Assembly (NCBI RefSeq): GCF_003287935.1 | Contig: NZ_CP030287.1 | Span: forward strand, 2,942,267-3,006,266 | DNA from: Streptomyces sp. ICC1 | GTDB lineage: Bacteria; Actinomycetota; Actinomycetes; Streptomycetales; Streptomycetaceae | Direction of reading: 5' to 3' | Length of the DNA: 64,000 bases | Shown here: positions 23,993-36,286 of the stretch, in pieces | How positions within the stretch are numbered: position 1 is the stretch's first letter | Layout: every line of letters starts with the position of its first letter | The notes under the pieces: model-generated | What the model saw: the letters and a program-made list of their open reading frames with translations, nothing else | Database searches by the model: none | Told to the model about the DNA's origin: nothing | Translations under genes and position numbers: made by a program

Positions 23993-25478
23993 ATGCCTGC
24001 GTCGCCCATCACCACTCCCCTCCCACCGCACACAGATGTTCTGATCGTCGGCGCGGGCCCCGTGGGGCTGACCCTGGCCGCGAGCCTGCGGCAGCTGGGC
24101 GTGGACCACGTTCTCATCGACCGCGACACCAACGTGCAGACCGGCAGCAGAGCGGCAGCGCTCCAGCCCCGCTCCCTCGAATACCTGGACCGGATCGGCG
24201 TCGCCGAACACCTCGTGGCGGCGGGTGAGCGGGGGCCCGGGTTCCGCGTCCACGACCGGGAGCACACGCTGCTGCACGCTTCCTACGCCGATCTGGACAC
24301 GCCCTACCCTTACGTCCTGCTCGCCTCCCAGCAGACGACGGAGGAGCATCTGCTGCGGCGCCTGCGGGAGCTGGGCGGCGGGGTGCACCGCGGTTACAGG
24401 TTTCTCGGCTTCACTCCCGATTTTCCCGGGGTCTCCGCCGTGATCGCCGACCCGGAAGGCTTGTTGCGATCGGTCTCCGCGCGCTACCTGGTGGGCTGCG
24501 ACGGTCTGCACAGCGCCGTGCGGACAGCTGCCGCGATCGGCTTTCCCGGAGAGGCGCCTGAGCAGGTGTTCGCCCTGGCCGACGTCCGCCTGGATGCTGG
24601 GCCGAACGGCCTCGGGGAGCACGACACCACCTTCTTCCTCTCCTCCGCGGGGATGCTGCTCCTCTCGCCGCTCGCCGGCGCACAGCACCGCATCGTGACT
24701 CCCGCCGCGCCGGGTTCGGCCGCGCCCTGCGCCGCCGACATCGAGCGGCTGGTGTCCGAACGCGGGCCGGTGGCGGGGCGCATCCGAGTGGCGGAGGTGG
24801 TGTCCGCCTCCACGTACCGCGTTCAGGAGCGGGTCGCCGAGCGGTTCCGGGCCGGTCCGGTCCTCCTGGCCGGGGACGCCGCGCACACCCACAGCCCGGC
24901 CGGTGGCCAGGGCATGAACACCGGCATCCAGGACGCCGGGAACCTGGCCTGGAAGCTGCACGCCGTCCTCACCGGAGCGGCCCCCGCCGAACTGCTGGAC
25001 AGCTACCACGACGAGCGGCATCCGGTCGCGTCCGAACTGGTCGCCTTCACCAGCCAGTTCGCCAGAATTGCCACCCTCAGGGACCCGGCCGCCGGACAGC
25101 GGCGCAACGACCTGTTCGCGGCTGCAGCAGCCGCGAACAGGTGTCCTCGACTGGATCACCGCCAAGCTCGCCCAGCTCGACATCGGCTACGCGCAGGAGC
25201 CCGGCCACGGCTCCCCACGTGCGGGAGACCGGGTCTCGCCCCTGACCGTCCCGCAAGCGGGCCTGCGCTGGACGCTGGCCCTACCCGGCCGGAGTGAACC
25301 GGAGGACGAGCGACAGCGGGGCACCGTCCTGTCCGTGTGTCACGTACCGGGACTACGCACTCCCCTGCTGGTGCGCCCCGACGGCTACCTCGCCGCGCAC
25401 GGAGTACCGGCCGAACCGGCCGAGGTTCTTGGCCAGCTGGCCCAGCATCTGCCCCTGCCCGTTCCGTCCACCCGATGA
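23993..25478 (+). pseudogene. FAD-dependent aromatic monooxygenase, frameshifted
   Basis: The first 380 residues form a PheA/TfdB/RdmE-type flavoprotein hydroxylase. The dinucleotide motif DVLIVGAGPVGLTLAASL, the DG motif VGCDGLHSAVR and the FAD motif GPVLLAGDAAHTHSPAGGQGMNTGIQDA are intact. At about 25111-25141 the reading leaves the coding frame. The C-terminal part (VLDWITAKLAQLDIGYAQ ... VPQAGLRWTLALPG) continues in another frame to 25478. A perfect 31-bp palindrome sits exactly at the switch. Either the gene is inactivated in its thioredoxin-like C-terminal domain or the assembly has an error at the hairpin. It heads the operon with amidohydrolase and VOC genes. Confidence 0.8.
25111..25141. 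repeat. Perfect 31-bp palindrome at the frameshift
   Basis: CCTGTTCGCGGCTGC, a single A, then the exact complement GCAGCCGCGAACAGG. It coincides with the point where the monooxygenase reading frame is lost, consistent with a hairpin-templated switch during replication. Confidence 0.9.
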
Positions 25479-27991: not shown

Positions 27992-28059
27992 CGTTCCAGA
28001 CGTGCGAGGGAGCAAGCCCGCGTTGGATCGGCCACCTGAGCGGCCCCGCCTCTGCGGAG

Positions 28060-28353
28060 CTACGGGGCACACAGTTCGCCCAGTTCGTTGACGTCCCGTT
28101 GAAGAGCCTGGGTTCCAGGGCTGCCCCAGGGGTGGCTGTTGAGGAAGCGCTGGGCGGCGGCGCGCACGGCCTGCCAGTCGTTGGCGTTCGTCGGGGCACC
28201 GGCGTTGCTCAGGTCCCCCTTGGTCCGGGCCACCACGTCGCGGCAGGTGGCCAGGGGCGCCGCGCTCACCGGAGCGGAGGCTCCGAACAGGGTGGCGCCG
28301 CCGAGGACCGCGGCCATCACGGCGACCGAGGTGACGGGCTGGAAGGATTTCAC
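28060..28353 (-). CDS. Small secreted protein of unknown function
   Basis: A 97-residue protein with a signal peptide (TSVAVMAAVLGGATLFGASAPVSA) and a mature part of about 65 residues holding two Cys (ATCRDVV and GELCAP) that may pair. The core AQRFLNSHPWGSPGTQALQRDV looks helical. GTG 28353 is chosen because CAGGAG lies 10 nt upstream; an ATG at 28383 is the alternative. It follows the acyl-CoA dehydrogenase-like gene on the same strand. Family not recognised. Confidence 0.6.
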   Translation of the reverse strand: MKSFQPVTSVAVMAAVLGGATLFGASAPVSAAPLATCRDVVARTKGDLSNAGAPTNANDWQAVRAAAQRFLNSHPWGSPGTQALQRDVNELGELCAP

Positions 28354-28425
28354 GGGTTTCGGGCTCCTGTTGGGACGGATCATGGGCAGAGGTTGGCTCC
28401 GCGCTGCGTGTACTCCGGATGTGGA

Positions 28426-30135
28426 TCAAGGACGCATCGCGTAGGTTCCGGCGATCGCTTCGATGCCCTGCCACAGGTCGTGGGTCCGTTCGGTGTCGTG
28501 GGCGGGGGTGCGCAGGCAGGCGAGGGCGTGCTCGCGCTGTTGGTCCGTCGTGCCGGGCTTGCCGTGGAGTTCGGTGAGCGGACCGGCGAAGTCCCTGATG
28601 AGCAGCGCGAAGATCTGGTCGAGGACACCCCGGTCCAGTCCGGTCAGTCGGGCCTGCTCCAGGATGAGGTGGCCGTAGACGACGGTCATGAACAGCCGGC
28701 CGATCGGAAGCATGAAGTCGAGGTCTCCTCGCTGGCCGGCATCCGGACCGCAGGTGGCCAGCAGCTCGCGGAATCCTTCGACCTGTTCCCGGAAGCGCGT
28801 CACGTTCGCCACGTCCTCGAAGTGGTCGAAGGCGGGACGCCAGTCGTGGAAGCGGACCTCGCCGAGCCGGCCGGTGGAGCCCTGCCGGAACAGGAAGCCG
28901 TCGTCTCGGTCGTCGGTCCGGGAGGGCACCGGGTCGTAGGGGGCGTCGCCGAGCAGGTAGTTGCGCAGGAACTTCAGGATCAGCGTGATGTTGACGTGGA
29001 CGGTCCCTTCCAGCCGTGGCAGGCCGGGCAGGTCGCGTGCGACCCAGTTGAAGTGGGTGTCGGCTTCGAAGCCCTTGGCCGCGATGGCGTCCCAGAGGAG
29101 GGTGACGACCTGCTCCGCCTCCGTGGTCACCTTCGTCTTGGACATGGCCGTGAAGAGGATGTAGCGGCGGTCGTCCTCTTGCGCGGACCTCATGTAGTCG
29201 ACGGCGCGGTTCGTGAACATCTTCATGGCGAGCAGGCGGAGGTAGGCGTCGCTGAAGATCCGGCGGATGTGCGGGAAGTCGGTGACGCGCCGCCCGTAGA
29301 GCATGCGGGTGTGCGCGTGGTTGAGGGACTCGTGGAAGGCGTGCTCGCAGGCGCCGATGCCGGCGGTGCCGAGGTTGAACTTGCCGATGTTGACGGTGTT
29401 CAGGGCGACGTCGAGGGCCGGCTTGCCGGTGTGCAGGATGTCGTCGGCGGTGACGGGATAGTCGTCGAAGCTGATCTCGGCGACGTAGAGGTGGTCGTTG
29501 GCGACGTTGCGGACGGCCGTGTAGTTCGGGTGGCGGCTGTCGGCCAGGAAGAACACGTAGCCGTCCGGGCCTTCGACGTCGGCGCGGCGCCCGAAGGCGG
29601 TGACGATGCCGGCCACGTTCCCGTTGCCGATGTAGTACTTCGAGCCGCTAGCGCGGAACCCGCCGTCGGCCGTGGGGGTGAGGAGGAGGTCCGTCGCGTA
29701 GATGTCGGCTCCGTGGGTCTTCTCCGACAGGGCGAAGGCGGCCGAGTGGCCCTGCCTGAGGAGTTCGACCGTACGGCGGCGGGCTGTCGCGTTGCCGCTC
29801 TGCCAGACGGGGGCCAGGCCCAGCATGGTGACGTGCCAGGTGTACCAGCCGTTGATGCCGTAAAAGGCGAGGACCTCGTTGAAGGCGGTGTTGCGGGCGG
29901 TGTCCCAGCGCCCGTTGCCTCCATCGGCGGCCGAGGGGATCAGGCAGTGCGCGAAGATGCCCTGTTCTCCTGCGAAGGCGAGGAATTCGGCGAACCATGA
30001 CGCGTAGCTTTCGACCAGCCGCTTCTTACCGCGCCCTTCGAACCAGTCGATCACGGCCCTCAGCAGCCGTCGGGTCTCCGGGTCGAACTCGGCGGGATCG
30101 TAGGACCGCGGGTTCAGAATCACCGGCTGAAGCAT
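28426..30135 (-). CDS. Acyl-CoA dehydrogenase-like flavoprotein
   Basis: A 569-residue member of the acyl-CoA dehydrogenase superfamily, longer than the usual 380 residues. The middle domain (AAFALSEKTHGADIYATDLLLTP, FRASGSKYYIGNGNVAGIV) and the C-terminal four-helix domain (LGTAGIGACEHAFHESLNHAHTRMLYGRRVTDFP, in parts) are clear. An N-terminal helical domain and a C-terminal extension of about 120 residues set it apart. This long type oxidises acyl-CoA or peptidyl/AMP-linked acyl groups with FAD. It is divergent from the small secreted peptide gene, and a copy of the repeated CGTCCG-N7-TGCGNGAGAGTCC element lies 47 bp upstream of its start. Confidence 0.88.
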   Translation of the reverse strand: MLQPVILNPRSYDPAEFDPETRRLLRAVIDWFEGRGKKRLVESYASWFAEFLAFAGEQGIFAHCLIPSAADGGNGRWDTARNTAFNEVLAFYGINGWYTWHVTMLGLAPVWQSGNATARRRTVELLRQGHSAAFALSEKTHGADIYATDLLLTPTADGGFRASGSKYYIGNGNVAGIVTAFGRRADVEGPDGYVFFLADSRHPNYTAVRNVANDHLYVAEISFDDYPVTADDILHTGKPALDVALNTVNIGKFNLGTAGIGACEHAFHESLNHAHTRMLYGRRVTDFPHIRRIFSDAYLRLLAMKMFTNRAVDYMRSAQEDDRRYILFTAMSKTKVTTEAEQVVTLLWDAIAAKGFEADTHFNWVARDLPGLPRLEGTVHVNITLILKFLRNYLLGDAPYDPVPSRTDDRDDGFLFRQGSTGRLGEVRFHDWRPAFDHFEDVANVTRFREQVEGFRELLATCGPDAGQRGDLDFMLPIGRLFMTVVYGHLILEQARLTGLDRGVLDQIFALLIRDFAGPLTELHGKPGTTDQQREHALACLRTPAHDTERTHDLWQGIEAIAGTYAMRP

Positions 30136-30181
30136 GTGGGATCACCCTGTTTCCTTGCGTGGCCGGGGCCCCGGCCGTCCT

Positions 30182-30207
30182 GGACTCTCGCGCACCCTTT
30201 GCGGACG
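30182..30207 (-). promoter_or_regulatory. Element E of the AraC-locus repeat family
   Basis: Read on the minus strand it is CGTCCG, seven bases, then TGCGCGAGAGTCC, the same pattern as the copies before araC and the P450-terpene synthase gene. It lies between the divergent acyl-CoA dehydrogenase-like and secreted peptide genes. Confidence 0.65.
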
Positions 30208-30297
30208 TTCGAATATTCACGCCTGCTATCCCTCCTGCCTACCGTGGTGAGGCAGGGCATCGAGACCCACCTCGGGGATTAACAGACAGGAGCAGCG

Positions 30298-30492
30298 ATG
30301 ATGCGCAAGCAACTGATCGCAGCCGCAGTGACCGCGCTGTTCGCGGCCGGAGCGCTGGCGGCGGCGCCGAGCAGCTTCGCCGTGCCGTCGGCGTCGCCGG
30401 GCACCACGCACGTCGTGCTGAGCGGACGCGCCTCCCACAACACGTCCCTCGGCACTGTCGCGCCCCTCATTTGCAAGAGGGGCTGTAGCTGA
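30298..30492 (+). CDS. Short secreted peptide (64 residues)
   Basis: An exported peptide: the signal sequence MMRKQLIAAAVTALFAAGALAAAPSSFA leaves a mature peptide of about 36 residues ending in LGTVAPLICKRGCS. The two Cys near the end could form a small loop (CKRGC). An excellent ribosome binding site, CAGGAGCAGCG, precedes the ATG pair at 30298/30301. A CCCCTTCGGGG hairpin follows at about 30532. I do not recognise the family. It could be a signalling peptide, a bacteriocin-like peptide or a modified peptide precursor. No known maturation enzyme is next to it, apart from the divergent flavoprotein. Confidence 0.7.
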   Translation: MMRKQLIAAAVTALFAAGALAAAPSSFAVPSASPGTTHVVLSGRASHNTSLGTVAPLICKRGCS

Positions 30493-30960
30493 ACCATCCC
30501 GCGCGACGGAGGCTGCGCCGCCCTCTCCGCACCCCTTCGGGGAGGGCAGCCGTCGAGGACGGACTCCAGGCAGGCCTCCACCGAGAGGACAGGAGCAGCG
30601 GACCGCGCGGCCGTCGGCCGAGGAAGGGCCGGCGCCCCACGGCCCGGGATTCCGCTGGCACCGGACCGCATCAGCTCTGGTCCGCCGACTCGGTCGCGTC
30701 GCCTGGCCCTTCACCGCGAGTTCGGCGAAGGTCCGCCGCTCGGCCGTCGGTAGCACTACCTCGTCCAGGTGAACCTTGTCGCGATCCTGGAATCCGCCCA
30801 TGAGCACGACCTCCTGACGCTGAGGCACCGACCGCACAACCGGCGGCGGCGATCCGGGACAAGGACCCCGCCCGGGGAAGTGCCCTGTCACCCATCGTGA
30901 TGGGTGTCCAACAACATGTGAATGCTTGCCCGTCCGCGCGACTTGCGCGAGAGTCCGCTC
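30493..30960. other. Gap with a possible gene remnant and a palindrome
   Basis: No complete gene is seen. On the minus strand an AGGAGG ribosome binding site precedes ATG 30801, and 33 coding-looking residues follow (MGGFQDRDKVHLDEVVLPTA, ERRTFAELAVKGQ) before the frame turns into low-complexity sequence. This is probably a truncated gene of unknown family. CACCCATCGTGATGGGTG at 30889-30906 is a perfect 18-bp palindrome, likely an operator for one of the flanking genes. A hairpin near 30519-30549 may end the peptide transcript. Confidence 0.45.
30928..30958 (+). promoter_or_regulatory. Element A of the AraC-locus repeat family
   Basis: A 31-bp sequence (CGTCCG-N7-TGCGCGAGAGTCC core) agreeing with element B (32407-32437) at 26 of 31 positions. 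It ends 2 bp before the araC ATG. Probably a binding site for the AraC-family protein. Confidence 0.65.
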
Positions 30961-31941
30961 ATGGCCGCACCGCTGACCGCACCGCCGTCCGCACCCCTCC
31001 CCACGTCTGCGACCTGGGGAGATCCCATCACCGAGACCCTCGAACTCACCGGCGCGCGCTGCGCCTTGTCCCGCGGACTCATCGCCGCCGGGGACTGGGC
31101 ACTGGCCTTTCCGGCGCCGGGCCGGCTCAAGATCCAGGCCGTGATGCAGGGTGTCGTCTGGCTGGTGATAGAGGGCGTCGAACACCCCGTCCGCCTGGAG
31201 GCCGGCGACATCGCCGTCTTCGCCGGCGACCGCCGGTACACCCTGGCGAGTGACCCGGCCGTGCCGCCGATCGACGCGCTGCCCGTGCTCCGGGCGACCA
31301 CCGAGACATTCTTCCACGCCGGGGACGAAGGGCGGGACGCCGTCACGATCGGCGGCCACATCGATCTCAACACCACGGGCAGGGACCTGCTGCTGAGCGC
31401 CCTTCCACCTCTGATGCACGTCAGTGCCACCACGGCCGAGGCGCCCGCGGCCTGCTGGCTCATGGACCAGACCCTCCACGAGATGCGGTCGGCCGCTCCG
31501 GGTGCCGCCTTCGCGGCGGAGCACCTCGCGCAGCTGCTCTTCGTACAGGTCCTGCGCGTCTTCCTGACCGACGCGAGCGCCGACACCTACCCGGTGGGCT
31601 GGCTGCGCGCCCTCGCCGACGAACGCGTCGCCCCCGCCCTGCGCCTCATGCACGGAGACCCGGCCCGCCCCTGGACCCTGACCGAACTCGCCCGCGCCGC
31701 GGCCATGTCCCGCACCAGTTTCGCCCAGCGCTTCAAGGAGGTCGCGGGCGTCCCGCCCCTCACCTACCTGTGCACCTGGCGGATGCGCCTGGCCCAGCAC
31801 ACCCTGTGCCGGGAGGACACCCCCGTGGCGGCCATCGCCTCCGCACTGGGCTACGGCTCCGAGAGCGCCTTCAGCAACGCCTTCAAACGCACCACCGGAG
31901 TGGCTCCGCGCCGCTACCGGGAAGCCGTACGGGCAAACTGA
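30961..31941 (+). CDS. AraC-family transcriptional regulator
   Basis: A 326-residue activator-type regulator. An N-terminal cupin-like effector domain (about 40-190; LKIQAVMQGVVWLVIEGVEHPVRLEAGDIAVFAGDR, in parts) is joined to a C-terminal double HTH (about 225-320): PWTLTELARAAAMSRTSFAQRFKEVAGVPPLTYL and the AIASALGYGSESAFSNAFKRTTGVAPRRYR signature. ATG 30961 is used; an in-frame ATG at 30922 would translate the repeat element and is less likely. Similar repeats upstream of the P450-terpene synthase and acyl-CoA dehydrogenase genes suggest it is the local pathway regulator. Confidence 0.9.
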   Translation: MAAPLTAPPSAPLPTSATWGDPITETLELTGARCALSRGLIAAGDWALAFPAPGRLKIQAVMQGVVWLVIEGVEHPVRLEAGDIAVFAGDRRYTLASDPAVPPIDALPVLRATTETFFHAGDEGRDAVTIGGHIDLNTTGRDLLLSALPPLMHVSATTAEAPAACWLMDQTLHEMRSAAPGAAFAAEHLAQLLFVQVLRVFLTDASADTYPVGWLRALADERVAPALRLMHGDPARPWTLTELARAAAMSRTSFAQRFKEVAGVPPLTYLCTWRMRLAQHTLCREDTPVAAIASALGYGSESAFSNAFKRTTGVAPRRYREAVRAN

Positions 31942-31998
31942 GCCGACCGCCGCGCCGGCGCTGCCTCCAGCAGCACCGTCGGCCCGCCCCCGTGACCC

Positions 31999-32325
31999 CT
32001 ACCCGCCCTGTGGGCAGGGGTCGCGGGGCGGCCAGGAGACCCCGCGCAGCGCCGCGACCGCCTGGAGCGTCCCGTCCGTACGGCCGGCCAGCAGACCCCG
32101 GGGAGTGCGGACGCTCCAGAGGGTGTCCGCACACGGTTCGGCCCGGCCCAGGGGAAGGGGATGGGTGATGTCCGTGACGTCCTGGATGACGACCTCGCCG
32201 TCAGCTCGTGCCGCGCTGTAGCTGCGGCCCATGCACTTGAAGACCGTGGGCCTCGACGTGACCTCATCGAGCCCCACGACCGAAGTCCCCTGCTCGAGCC
32301 CCCTACCGGACATTGGACCGCACAT
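31999..32325 (-). CDS. Small hypothetical protein
   Basis: A 108-residue soluble protein with good coding character: VVGLDEVTSRPTVFKCMGRS, ARADGEVVIQDVTDITHPLP, TPRGLLAGRTDGTLQAVAALRGV. GGAGG lies 5 nt before ATG 32325. It is convergent with araC and divergent from the P450-terpene synthase gene. The beta-strand-rich pattern with V-x-D and T-P-R-G-L-L motifs resembles a small beta-propeller fragment or beta-barrel, but I do not recognise the family. Confidence 0.5.
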   Translation of the reverse strand: MCGPMSGRGLEQGTSVVGLDEVTSRPTVFKCMGRSYSAARADGEVVIQDVTDITHPLPLGRAEPCADTLWSVRTPRGLLAGRTDGTLQAVAALRGVSWPPRDPCPQGG

Positions 32326-32406
32326 TACGCCTCCGTTACAGCAAGCTACCGATCAAACGCTCATGGTAGCCACGAGGCGGCAGTGGTCCTGCGGCTCAAT
32401 GGGTTC

Positions 32407-32568
32407 GCCCGTCCGCGATACCTGCGTGAGAGTCCACAGAACCGGCGGACGAGAGGCCGTCGGGCCGACGAGCGGGTGACCAGCCCGCCCGTCCGGGCTT
32501 CCCTGCGCGGGAGCCCGGTCACGGGCCGCCCGCCGTGGCGGACTCTCGCGCAGGAAGCCCGGACGGTT
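32407..32568. promoter_or_regulatory. Elements B, C and D upstream of the P450-terpene synthase gene
   Basis: B (32407-32437, plus strand) and C (32487-32517, plus strand, spacer 8 instead of 7) are direct copies. D (32538-32568) is on the minus strand and agrees with A at 25 of 30 positions, with C and D forming an imperfect inverted repeat of about 30 bp arms. These sites fill the middle of the 396-bp gap (32326-32721) between the divergent small hypothetical and the P450-terpene synthase gene. They look like a multi-site operator for the AraC-family protein. Confidence 0.65.
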
Positions 32569-32721
32569 GCGCATTCCGTCCTGATGGCGGGCAAACCTAG
32601 CCTGGCTCTCTGTGGGCGACGGGGCAGGGCCAACGGGCCGCCGGAGTGCCCGCTCGCCCGCAACCACCGCGCCGGCGCCTTCGAACCGCTGCGGGAACGC
32701 GCAACCCCTGAGGACGAGAAC

Positions 32722-35028
32722 GTGACTACGGACGCCCCCGCATACCTGCCGCCCCGAACGGTCGCCACCGCTCCCGGGTGTCTGCCCCTGGTGGGGCACT
32801 CGCTGGCCCTGCTGCGCGACCCGATCGGCGTACTGCAGTCGATCCGACCCCTGGGCGACCTGGTGGAGATCCGGCTCGGCAACCTGTCCGTGTACGCCGT
32901 GAACTCGCCGGCGCTCCTGCGGGAGATGCTCGTGACAGACGCGGTCTCCTACGAGAAGGGACGCTACTTCCAGAAGTCCCGCCCCTTCCTCGGCAACGGA
33001 CTGCCCAACTCCGAGGGTGACTTCCACCGCCGCCAGCGCCGTCTGATGATCCCGGCGTTCCACCGAGAGAAGCTCAACTCCTACACCGGCGTCATGCGCC
33101 TGAGCGCCACCACGTACTCCGAGGCCTGGACACCGGACAGCACGATCGACGTGGCCTCCGAGATGTACGCGATCGGCAGCGAGGCCGTGGCCAAGGCCCT
33201 TTTCGGCAGCGCCCTGGGCAACGAGGAGGTGCGCCTCATCCGGCGCTGGCTGCCCACCTACGTGCACGAGTTGATGCGGCGTGTGGTCTCGCCCGTCGAC
33301 TGGCTGGACCGCCTCCCCACCCCTGGAAACCGCCGCTTCCGGGAGTCGGGCACCCAGTTGCGCAAGGTCGTCGACCGGCTGATCCGTGAGCGCCTCGCCG
33401 ACGGACGGCCCCGTGCGGACCTCCTCGGCATGCTGATGGCCGCCCGCGACTCCGACACGGGGGAACCGATGAGCCCGGACCAGCTCCACGACGAGGTCAT
33501 GACCGTCATGGCCGCCGGGATCGAGACCGCCTCGACCAGCCTGACCTGGCTCTTCCACGAAGTCGGCTCCCGGCCCGACATCGAGCGACGGCTCCACGCC
33601 GAACTCGACGAGGTCCTCGGATCGAGGCCCGTCACCTTCGAGGACCTGCCGAAGCTCGTCTTCACCCAGAACCTGGTCAGGGAGACGCTCCGGCTGCGCA
33701 GCCCGGCCTGGATCCTGATGCGCCAGCCCGCCCGCCCCGGCGTCGTCCTCGGCGGAGTGGAGATCCCCGCGGAAACCGAGCTCCTGTTCAGCCCGCTCAC
33801 CATCCACCGCGACCCCGGCCTGTACCCGGACCCCATGGAGTTCGACCCGGACCGGTGGCTGACCGCCGACCCGCGCGGCTGGGCCTTCCTGCCGTTCGGC
33901 GCAGGCCCCCGCAAGTGCATCGGCGACCACTTCGCCCTCACCGAGATGGCCACGGTCGTCGCCACCGTCGCCGCCCGCTGGCGCCTGGTCCCGCTCTCCG
34001 AGCAGCCGCCCCGCGAGGTGCCCGGGGCCGTACTGGTCCCGAGCCTGTTGCAGATGTCCCCGCAGCCCCGCGCCGCGCAGACCCGCAGCGGCGGCACGCG
34101 GAGCGACGCCGGCCTCCACCTCCCGTTCCCCGCACGGATCAGCCCCGACGCCGCACGCGCGGCCGCCGAACACCTGCAGTGGCCCCGGTCCTTCGGCCTC
34201 CTCCCCACCGACGCGGCCGCCGAGCGCCACGCCCGCGGCCACTACGCCGAACTCGCCGCCCGCTTCCACCCGGCCGCGACCGGGCCGGACCTGGCCCTGG
34301 GCGTCGACCAGATGAGCTGGTTCTTCTGCTTCGACGACGCCTTCGACGGCCCGGCCGGCGACGACCCCGGACAGGCCCGCACGGTGGTCGACGTGGTCGC
34401 CGCCGCCCTGGACCAGCACCCCGCCCCCGACGCACCACCGCTCGCCCGCGCCTTCCACGACCTCTGGCTGCGCAGCCGCGAGGGCATGTCACCGTCCTGG
34501 TGCGAGCGGGCCGCCGCGCACTGGCGGGCGTACCTCTACGGGCACGTCCAGGAAGCCACCAACCGGCAATCCGGCACCCTGCTCACCGTGGACGAGTACC
34601 TAGGACTGCGCCGCGACACCATCGGCGTGCAGCCCACGCTCGACCTCGCCGAACGGATCGGCCACTACGAACTGCCCGCCGCCCTCTTCGCCTCGGACAC
34701 CGTGACAGCTCTGCGCACCCTGGCCGCCGAGATCGACTCCCTCCACAACGACCTCTACTCGCTCTCCAAGGAGGAATCCGGTGCGGACCCGCACAACCTC
34801 CTGCTGATCCTCCAGCGCACGGACGGGGCGGACCGCGACGACGCCTCCACCAGCGTGCTGGGCATGCTGCACGCACGCATCGCACGCTTCCGCAGCCTCG
34901 AAAGCGAACTGCACGCCCCTGCCGGCATGGCCCTGGACCGCTACCTCCGCGACGCCCTGCACACGGTCATGCGCGGCCCCTACGACTGGGCACCACGATC
35001 CGGTCGCTACAGCACCAACCCGCTGTGA
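32722..35028 (+). CDS. Fused cytochrome P450-class I terpene synthase
   Basis: One uninterrupted 768-residue polypeptide. Residues 1-445 are a complete P450 resembling pentalenene-oxygenase-like enzymes: I-helix AGIETAS (265-271), ExxR E321-R324, FDPDRW, and heme loop FGAGPRKCIGDHF with Cys399. After a linker (LVPSLLQMSPQPRAAQTRSG) residues 465-768 are a class I terpene synthase: the metal motif DDAFD (538-542), the RRDTIG segment, the NSE triad NDLYSLSKE (N676, S680, E684) and the closing RY (762-763). All catalytic motifs of both halves are intact. It should cyclise a prenyl diphosphate (probably farnesyl) and oxidise the product. GTG 32722 follows GAGGA. No redox partner gene is adjacent. 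Confidence 0.92.
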   Translation: MTTDAPAYLPPRTVATAPGCLPLVGHSLALLRDPIGVLQSIRPLGDLVEIRLGNLSVYAVNSPALLREMLVTDAVSYEKGRYFQKSRPFLGNGLPNSEGDFHRRQRRLMIPAFHREKLNSYTGVMRLSATTYSEAWTPDSTIDVASEMYAIGSEAVAKALFGSALGNEEVRLIRRWLPTYVHELMRRVVSPVDWLDRLPTPGNRRFRESGTQLRKVVDRLIRERLADGRPRADLLGMLMAARDSDTGEPMSPDQLHDEVMTVMAAGIETASTSLTWLFHEVGSRPDIERRLHAELDEVLGSRPVTFEDLPKLVFTQNLVRETLRLRSPAWILMRQPARPGVVLGGVEIPAETELLFSPLTIHRDPGLYPDPMEFDPDRWLTADPRGWAFLPFGAGPRKCIGDHFALTEMATVVATVAARWRLVPLSEQPPREVPGAVLVPSLLQMSPQPRAAQTRSGGTRSDAGLHLPFPARISPDAARAAAEHLQWPRSFGLLPTDAAAERHARGHYAELAARFHPAATGPDLALGVDQMSWFFCFDDAFDGPAGDDPGQARTVVDVVAAALDQHPAPDAPPLARAFHDLWLRSREGMSPSWCERAAAHWRAYLYGHVQEATNRQSGTLLTVDEYLGLRRDTIGVQPTLDLAERIGHYELPAALFASDTVTALRTLAAEIDSLHNDLYSLSKEESGADPHNLLLILQRTDGADRDDASTSVLGMLHARIARFRSLESELHAPAGMALDRYLRDALHTVMRGPYDWAPRSGRYSTNPL

Positions 35029-35602
35029 TCACCGGGACGGTCCTGGACACCGCTCGCACGGATGGCGTGACGGTAGTGGCGCGGGACGCGCCGGTCGCGC
35101 GTAGCCCTCGGGTGTACGCCAGGCAGGTACGGCACAGCTTCGGCATCCCGAGGCAAGAGTCCACGAGCGTGGCAGCACATGACGAGGCGCCCCTTCCAAC
35201 CGCCGGTCCCCACTCAGGTGCACGACCTGCCACCAGCCCCCGCCCTGACCGAGGCTGAGGCATGGCTGGCATGGACCTCAAGACAGGTCGCACGCCGCGA
35301 CCCGACCAGCCGGCCCCACCCATGCCCCTACCCGCCTGGCCTGAACCCTCGCAGGCGCGGCGGGCACCAGGATCCGGACCGTTTCCGGACCAGTTGCCTC
35401 CAACGAACCGTACGCACCACAGTTTTCGCTGGTCAGCGTGGGTGCGATGACTGTACCTCCAGGAGACGAAGAACCTCCTGGTGAGTCACTCCCTCGACTG
35501 AAGGCCTGACCGGTTCAACGAGTGGGCGTGCCAGCCAGTAGACCGAGCTACCACAGGGGACACACCTGGGCCCCCAAACAGCGCCCTCGCCGGGTTTGAT
35601 GC
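35029..35602. other. Gap without a recognisable gene
   Basis: Between the terpene synthase and the integrase remnant I see no supported gene. Short frames on both strands lack ribosome binding sites and family resemblance. CCAGGAG...CTCCTGG around 35458-35480 is a 7-bp inverted repeat, and codon bias is absent from about 35400. It may be the eroded end of a mobile element. No tRNA or clear attachment site was found. Confidence 0.4.
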
Positions 35603-36286
35603 ATGGAGTGGGCGCCCGCTGGTCACCCCGCCGGGCATGGGGGCGCCCCCTGCTGGCGCGACCGCGGCGGCTTCAACACCGCGCTTCGTCGACTGCCCAC
35701 AACGTCGTGCGCCGGCCTCCGCGACATACGCACCGCCGGCGACGACCGGTTCCTCCTCATCGCCGACCTGATGAGCGGCTGCGGCATGCGCAACGGCGAG
35801 GCCTTCGCCGTGAACCTCAACAACCTGGTCGCCAGCGACATCTACCGCATCACCGAGCAGGTCAACCAGACCACCAAGACCTACGGCCGCCTCAAACACC
35901 GCAAAGCGACCGACTACCGCGACGTCCCTCTCCCGGCCCGCGTCCGGGAAACCATCGAGTGGTACGCGGACAAGCACGGCACGGTCGACGGCTACCTCCT
36001 CCGCCACCCCATGGACCCCACGAGGCCCTACCTGGCCTACTACCTCCAGAACCAGTGGCAGCGCGTCAAGCGCACAGATGAGGTCGACATCCCCGAGGGC
36101 ATGGTCATCTACAGCCTCCGCCACTTCTTCGCCTCGAACTGCCTCACCAACGGCATCCCCATCACCGACGTCGCCGAATGGATGGGCCACAAGAGCCTCG
36201 ACATCACCTTCAAGATCTACCGCCACCTCATGCCCGGCTCCATCGGCAAAGCCGCCAAAATCCTCGACGTCGGCCTGGCTGCGTGA
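35603..36286 (+). pseudogene. Tyrosine recombinase (integrase), N-terminally truncated
   Basis: The last 180 residues are a tyrosine recombinase catalytic domain. The first Arg is in LMSGCGMRNGEAF, Lys/His-containing HRKATDYRDVPLP follows, then SLRHFFASNCL, GHKSLD and the nucleophile in FKIYRHLMP. The SAM-like core-binding and arm-binding domains are missing. The first 50 residues of the open frame resemble nothing. It is a remnant of an integrative element and marks the left edge of the metal/sulfur island. It is probably inactive. Confidence 0.75.

Follow-up and report, generated by a model that had tools for sequence, protein, structure and literature searches.

A rare, conserved fusion of a cytochrome P450 to a class I terpene synthase in Streptomyces sp. 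ICC1

The gene described here encodes a real, conserved and rare fusion of a cytochrome P450 to a terpene synthase. Terpene cyclization and the first oxidation that follows it are usually the work of separate enzymes. The window, namely the entire 64,000-nucleotide stretch of DNA that was analyzed, carries the gene on its forward strand, and translation of positions 32722-35028 gives 768 codons with one stop only, at the end. The features of the gene are the following.

32722..35028, forward strand: P450-terpene synthase fusion gene, 768 amino acids, GTG start, stop codon at 35026-35028
32782..34038, forward strand: cytochrome P450 domain, residues 21-439 (PF00067, E = 6.4e-71)
33514..33528, forward strand: I-helix motif AGIET, residues 265-269
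33682..33693, forward strand: ExxR motif, ETLR, residues 321-324
33892..33924, forward strand: heme-binding loop PFGAGPRKCIG with Cys 399
34054..34107, forward strand: linker, residues 445-462 (dN/dS of 1.02 against the copy in genome G458; pLDDT below 50 for residues 455-462)
34108..35025, forward strand: class I terpene synthase domain, pentalenene synthase-like, residues 463-768 (assigned by PF19086, fold and tree)
34333..34347, forward strand: DDAFD metal-binding motif, residues 538-542
34747..34773, forward strand: NDLYSLSKE (NSE triad), residues 676-684
35005..35010, forward strand: C-terminal RY, residues 762-763

The same frame is open further upstream, with an in-frame ATG at 32161; the GTG at 32722 was chosen as the start on the basis of the starts of its relatives and the sequence gaggacgaga that precedes it. 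The N-terminal half displays the PF00067 match, the AGxET and ExxR motifs and the heme cysteine loop of a cytochrome P450, and the C-terminal half the PF19086 match (residues 531-721, E = 1.6e-44), the DDxxD motif, the NSE triad and the RY pair of a class I terpene synthase (family 2). An earlier note on this DNA had proposed that a single polypeptide unites a P450 and a class I synthase, each of them complete. The frame and the two Pfam matches bear this out, and every catalytic motif that it named for the two enzymes was located in the 768-residue translation. In an AlphaFold2 model built on a 79-row alignment (mean pLDDT 90.3, pTM 0.74) both halves fold, and the runs with pLDDT below 50 are confined to residues 1-8, 455-462 and 766-768. 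The first residues of the linker are, in this model, still part of a P450 strand formed by residues 444-449.

A search with the window fusion, which covered 5.8 billion proteins, returned 162 matches, and among the best 120 of these at least six proteins contain both Pfam domains (P0002-P0006 and P0023). The same join occurs in P0002-P0006, all of which are named Kitasatospora or Streptomyces. They are full-length, non-redundant proteins of 774-778 amino acids and are 82-93% identical to the window protein over its whole length. These five and the window protein are referred to below as fusion I. In all six, the distance from the heme cysteine to the DDxFD motif is 139 residues. The window protein alone is without nine residues near position 739 (near 34936) that are present in P0002-P0006; the gap sits in a loop that connects two helices of the synthase. 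The region 34050-34130, which had been singled out as the place where a stop or frameshift might part the two enzymes, is open in frame, and because five other proteins keep the same spacing an error there is unlikely.

Substitution rates were calculated by the NG86 method for a single gene pair, the window gene and its G458 copy. The dN/dS is 0.09 for the P450 half (dS 0.21, 443 codons), 0.36 for the synthase half (dS 0.21, 306 codons) and 1.02 for the linker (dS 0.19, 18 codons). In this one pair, both halves are thus under purifying selection while the linker drifts. Six conserved copies of the join rule out an assembly artifact, and the wider idea of an artifact or a recent read-through of a pseudogene has a negligible probability: a Streptomyces protein, P0140, does contain a disrupted sequence related to the synthase half, but against it stand the six proteins with one and the same join and the purifying selection on both halves. 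P0140 and P0142 are short proteins in which a piece of the fusion I synthase half lies beside unrelated letters, and they are possibly decayed copies.

The data on the join would be fitted best by two working enzymes held together by a freely drifting, length-conserved tether. It is improbable that two proteins are made instead, through cleavage of the linker or through internal initiation at Met 445 (position 34054), either of which would free the synthase. This methionine, an in-frame ATG, is identical in all six fusion I proteins, and the model assigns low confidence to the linker. Met 445 lies inside the C-terminal P450 strand, however; inspection of the window DNA revealed no Shine-Dalgarno sequence before it, and both frame and spacing are kept in six of six proteins. 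As there is no stop codon between the halves, the full-length protein would in any event still be made.

In structural comparisons with Foldseek, the synthase half of the single chain matches pentalenene synthase with TM-scores by target of 0.90-0.93. It is ∼48% identical to that enzyme (PDB 1ps1) and scores 326.1 bits against the NCBIfam model NF045811 for pentalenene synthases, below the cut-off of 675 bits. It falls in a 39-row pentalenene synthase-like clade, the members of which are only partly characterized, and the fusion I proteins are nested there with the separate pentalenene synthase-like proteins P0122-P0129 (SH-aLRT 98). Nine pocket residues of pentalenene synthase are listed in the available portion of PMC10045451. 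Eight of them (F57, F76, F77, Y146, I177, V179, T182 and W308) are identical in all six fusion I proteins, and the sole change among the nine is an aspartate in all six at the position of N215. In addition, H309 is replaced by alanine in all six (A757 in the window protein). According to the same portion of PMC10045451 the H309A mutant of pentalenene synthase retains substantial activity, and A757 is therefore no argument against cyclization. The separate sister synthases carry the same changes, with aspartate at N215 in six of the eight and alanine at H309 in all eight. Hence fold, motifs and most of the pocket are shared with pentalenene synthase, which differs in being a free protein and in having Asn and His at these two positions. 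Given the near-identity of the pockets, a first guess for fusion I is that farnesyl diphosphate would be converted to pentalenene or a close relative. The earlier view that the product cannot be predicted from sequence was too strict: it is partly predictable, the pocket being nearly that of pentalenene synthase.

The P450 half gave TM-scores by target of 0.88-0.89 with CYP184A1 and 0.88 with CYP170A1. Its scores against the NCBIfam models for pentalenene oxygenase (NF045812, 356.5 bits) and for CYP170A-type bifunctional P450s (NF051859, 370.5 bits) are below the respective cut-offs of 800 and 700 bits. It is just 35-39% identical to the P450s found beside separate relatives of the synthase, and for this reason its regiochemistry may differ from theirs. 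In a 124-row P450 tree, which included 19 of the 77 proteins of a second fusion family and those loci from L050 onward only, all six rows of fusion I cluster in a single clade, the sister of the separate P0007 and L050-L052 (support 100). The nearest separate P450s with a readable context, at 57-58% identity, are located in synthase-P450-P450 clusters at three of three loci. The synthases of these clusters are just 31-33% like that of the window, and thus the fusion probably paired this type of P450 with a synthase other than that of its cluster. A Pfam scan revealed no reductase domain on the fusion P450, and neither a ferredoxin nor a ferredoxin reductase was present among the ten neighboring proteins scanned. 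Such bacterial P450s usually need both, according to the part of PMC10055836 that was available; the partners would therefore be encoded elsewhere.

That terpene synthases and P450s are normally separate genes, as the earlier note had assumed, agrees with the unfused relatives of the synthase: a P450 lies directly downstream at 36 of 36 loci (L134 is an annotated example). A simple read-through of a pentalenolactone-type operon was considered as the source of the fusion and rejected, in that these nearest separate loci run from synthase to P450 and the fusion P450 has no close kin among their P450s. The pentalenene oxygenase PtlI (CYP183A1) is likewise paired with a pentalenene-type synthase; in contrast to the fusion P450, it is encoded by its own gene downstream of the synthase and occupies another branch of the tree. 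The functional assignments of CYP183A1 and CYP170A1 come from the accessible text of PMC10992849.

Tandem genes in the order P450 then synthase do exist, namely at L132 (2668-5299, with a gap of 31 bases), at L133 (3944-6394, with a gap of 57 bases and in the same frame), at L136 on pSCL3 (a gap of 30) and at L014 of genome G359. L132 and L133 represent a possible pre-fusion arrangement. L133 was examined as a candidate fusion and discarded: one BLAST piece extends over both halves, yet there are two genes. The trees for these tandems were calculated with subsets of 53 and 44 rows, with L014 absent from the P450 tree and L135 from all trees. The P450s of L132 and L133 are placed next to the Kitasatospora family, their synthases belong to a neighboring clade, and the synthases of L136 and L137 are on long branches. 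None of the tandems groups with the window family. As for plasmids, 626 records match and 29 cover at least 80% of the query; of the 15 matches listed, six were examined, and none of the six is a fusion.

Genomes were searched with strict thresholds (E of 1e-100 to 1e-130) in draws that overlap, and the genus, family and class searches scored two candidates per genome. A full-length, uninterrupted fusion was present in one of 392 genomes of the genus and in one of 384 drawn from the class, in each case the window's own. It was found in two of 394 drawn from the family, along with four of the other fusion type, and in one of 35 genomes from the genus of G458. Genome G333 shows a match spanning both halves with one TGA, and a search of the genome contigs with the fusion alignment gave no match. 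The literature searched, which lay outside subscription journals, yielded no P450-terpene synthase fusion. None is described in the available portions of PMC6592883, PMC10992849, PMC10055836, PMC11574762, PMC10045451 and PMC12298776, nor in those of PMC4205913, PMC10992375, PMC12723471, PMC10563020 and PMC7369989. The claim that a P450-first fusion is unusual accordingly holds with respect to rarity, but the architecture is no one-off, there being six such proteins and a second family in Kitasatospora.

This second family, referred to as fusion II, was encountered in four of the family genomes, which encode same-order proteins of 798-818 amino acids (lengths that rest on starts picked during the analysis) with 36-37% identity to the window protein. 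When P0145 from Kitasatospora aureofaciens served as the query, at least 75 proteins with both domains were found among the best 120 of 137 matches, mostly in Kitasatospora. In the genus of genome G557, 20 of 70 genomes match, and in 11 of them a single match extends over almost the full protein length; in two of these 11 the matched region contains a stop codon, and the G557 frame is open for 798 residues. The fusion II proteins (P0144, P0145 and P0147-P0219, mostly named cytochrome P450) share domain order and motifs with the window protein. They differ in being 36-38% identical to it overall, in the linker, in the pocket and in a P450 half that lies outside the fusion I clade. Indeed, the distance from the heme cysteine to the DDxFD motif varies from 135 to 353 in 77 proteins, and seven of the nine pentalenene synthase pocket residues differ in the three proteins compared, so that a first guess for fusion II would be another product than that of fusion I. 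Sixteen fusion II proteins (P0197, P0199-P0204, P0206, P0208-P0210, P0212-P0215 and P0217) are 910-1045 residues long, have very long linkers and contain NDLYSADRE rather than the NDLYSLERE of most others. P0023 from Dactylosporangium fulvum, with 873 residues, has the reverse order, with the synthase first.

In the P450 tree, fusion II is sister to the separate P0222 and P0223 (support 99); these trees are quick ones with support by SH-aLRT only. Forcing the P450 halves of fusions I and II into one clade, with 54 of the 124 rows, costs 325 units of lnL and is rejected (AU p 0.00041). For the synthase halves a single clade gives an AU p of 0.182, with 72 of 77 rows; those dropped as long or broken were P0023, P0140 (twice), L008 and one of L053. 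The synthase halves do not reject one clade but the P450 halves do, and fusions I and II likely arose by separate joins. It is unlikely that one ancient fusion, split repeatedly later, gave rise to both families. The synthase halves are compatible with such an origin, and those of fusion II are on a branch of length 2.0. The P450 halves speak against it, both by the rejected clade and by the separate P450s that are sister to each fusion group. With separate joins as the preferred reading, the Kitasatospora family is a probable convergent counterpart of the window fusion.

Upstream of the fusion lie a regulatory gene and three operator-like sites.

30942..30958, forward strand: operator-like site with one mismatch, immediately upstream of the AraC start (a lead only)
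30961..31941, forward strand: AraC-family regulator, Cupin_6 and HTH_18, longest frame from 30922
32421..32437, forward strand: operator-like site CCTGCGTGAGAGTCCAC, upstream of the fusion (a lead only)
32538..32554, reverse strand: operator-like site, inverted, upstream of the fusion (a lead only)

The AraC gene and the fusion are also adjacent in G458, the only relative examined in this regard. A dc-megablast comparison of the window with 20 kb around the G458 copy showed two shared blocks, at 30762-32049 (AraC gene, 88.6%) and 32526-35087 (fusion, 90%), together with short pieces at 28051-28411 and 30157-30546 and a weak stretch of 230 bases near 24831. The ∼480 bases between the two blocks (32049-32526) are absent from the G458 locus. 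Neither the window beyond 35087 nor an acyl-CoA dehydrogenase-like gene (28429-30135, reverse strand) has a match in those 20 kb. The latter gene may share the AraC regulator. A phage-integrase family fragment follows the conserved block at 35603-36283 (forward strand), and no tRNA was found in the window.

The AraC-family protein would regulate the fusion gene, as their conserved adjacency suggests. The evidence for an operator is mixed. The 15-mer CTGCGNGAGAGTCCR has five sites in 9.03 Mb at one mismatch or fewer, and the reversed pattern has seven; with a total not above this control, the candidate operator is a lead only. Four of the five sites fall within 2.4 kb (30180-32554), near the start of the fusion as well as near the AraC and acyl-CoA dehydrogenase-like genes, and this clustering alone appears notable. 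The flanks of the copies are unlike each other by eye. Two sites are at matching places in G458, and L045 has an exact match to the 32538..32554 site upstream of its fusion and likewise a site just 5' of the AraC start. At three mismatches or fewer, the window contains seven sites versus 5.35 expected, and L045 two versus 1.54. A scan of 30100-35300 for sigma-70 type promoters gave none.

On the basis of these data, the fusion is probably a single chain that makes a sesquiterpenoid in two steps: farnesyl diphosphate would be converted to a pentalenene-like hydrocarbon, which the attached P450 would then oxidize. The C-terminal domain would ionize farnesyl diphosphate with Mg2+ and form pentalenene or a closely related product, and the N-terminal P450 would oxidize the resulting hydrocarbon with a ferredoxin and ferredoxin reductase supplied from elsewhere in the genome. 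Fusion would fix the production of the two enzymes at 1:1 and may hold a volatile hydrocarbon near the P450. A putative channeling of the terpene between the halves is plausible. Transcription of the gene is probably monocistronic and controlled by the neighboring AraC protein.

Linkage with neither channeling nor a shared intermediate is a quite credible alternative. The join would then provide mere co-expression, and the P450 may oxidize another terpene or act after diffusion. The freely drifting linker fits this, as do the widely varying linker lengths in Kitasatospora, which are those expected of a tether, and the stronger constraint on the P450 half than on the synthase half. The fixed spacing in all six fusion I proteins and the recurrence of joins between the same two functions argue against this alternative. 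More speculatively, streptomycetes may have evolved P450-synthase fusions on at least two occasions in the same order, with a reversed one in Dactylosporangium as a further case, because tethering brings a real advantage, in that the nascent hydrocarbon would reach the P450 without first escaping. In that case the window gene might constitute a one-gene, AraC-regulated path from farnesyl diphosphate to an oxidized pentalenene-type product, with an oxidation pattern unlike that of pentalenolactone.

Related architectures differ in kind. CYP170A1 (PDB 3el3), an albaflavenone monooxygenase with farnesene synthase activity, shares the P450 fold and the presence of two activities per chain. Its second active site is inside the P450, according to the accessible text of PMC10992849 and the title of the PDB entry, whereas the fusion appends a whole synthase domain. 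EutB, an HMBPP reductase-terpene cyclase didomain, is another case of a Streptomyces terpene cyclase joined to a further domain, but its partner is a truncated reductase and the P450s of its cluster are separate genes, as given in the available part of PMC11574762. In the fungal fusion of mycophenolic acid biosynthesis, going by the title of a reference cited in PMC4205913, a P450 is naturally fused to a pathway enzyme, in that case a hydrolase and not a terpene synthase.

The analysis flags dozens of proteins, most of them annotated as cytochrome P450, that contain a terpene synthase as well. Natural P450-synthase fusions represent ready-made scaffolds for engineering, and the conserved, probably convergent fusions, taken with their unfused relatives, allow any benefit of proximity to be tested directly.
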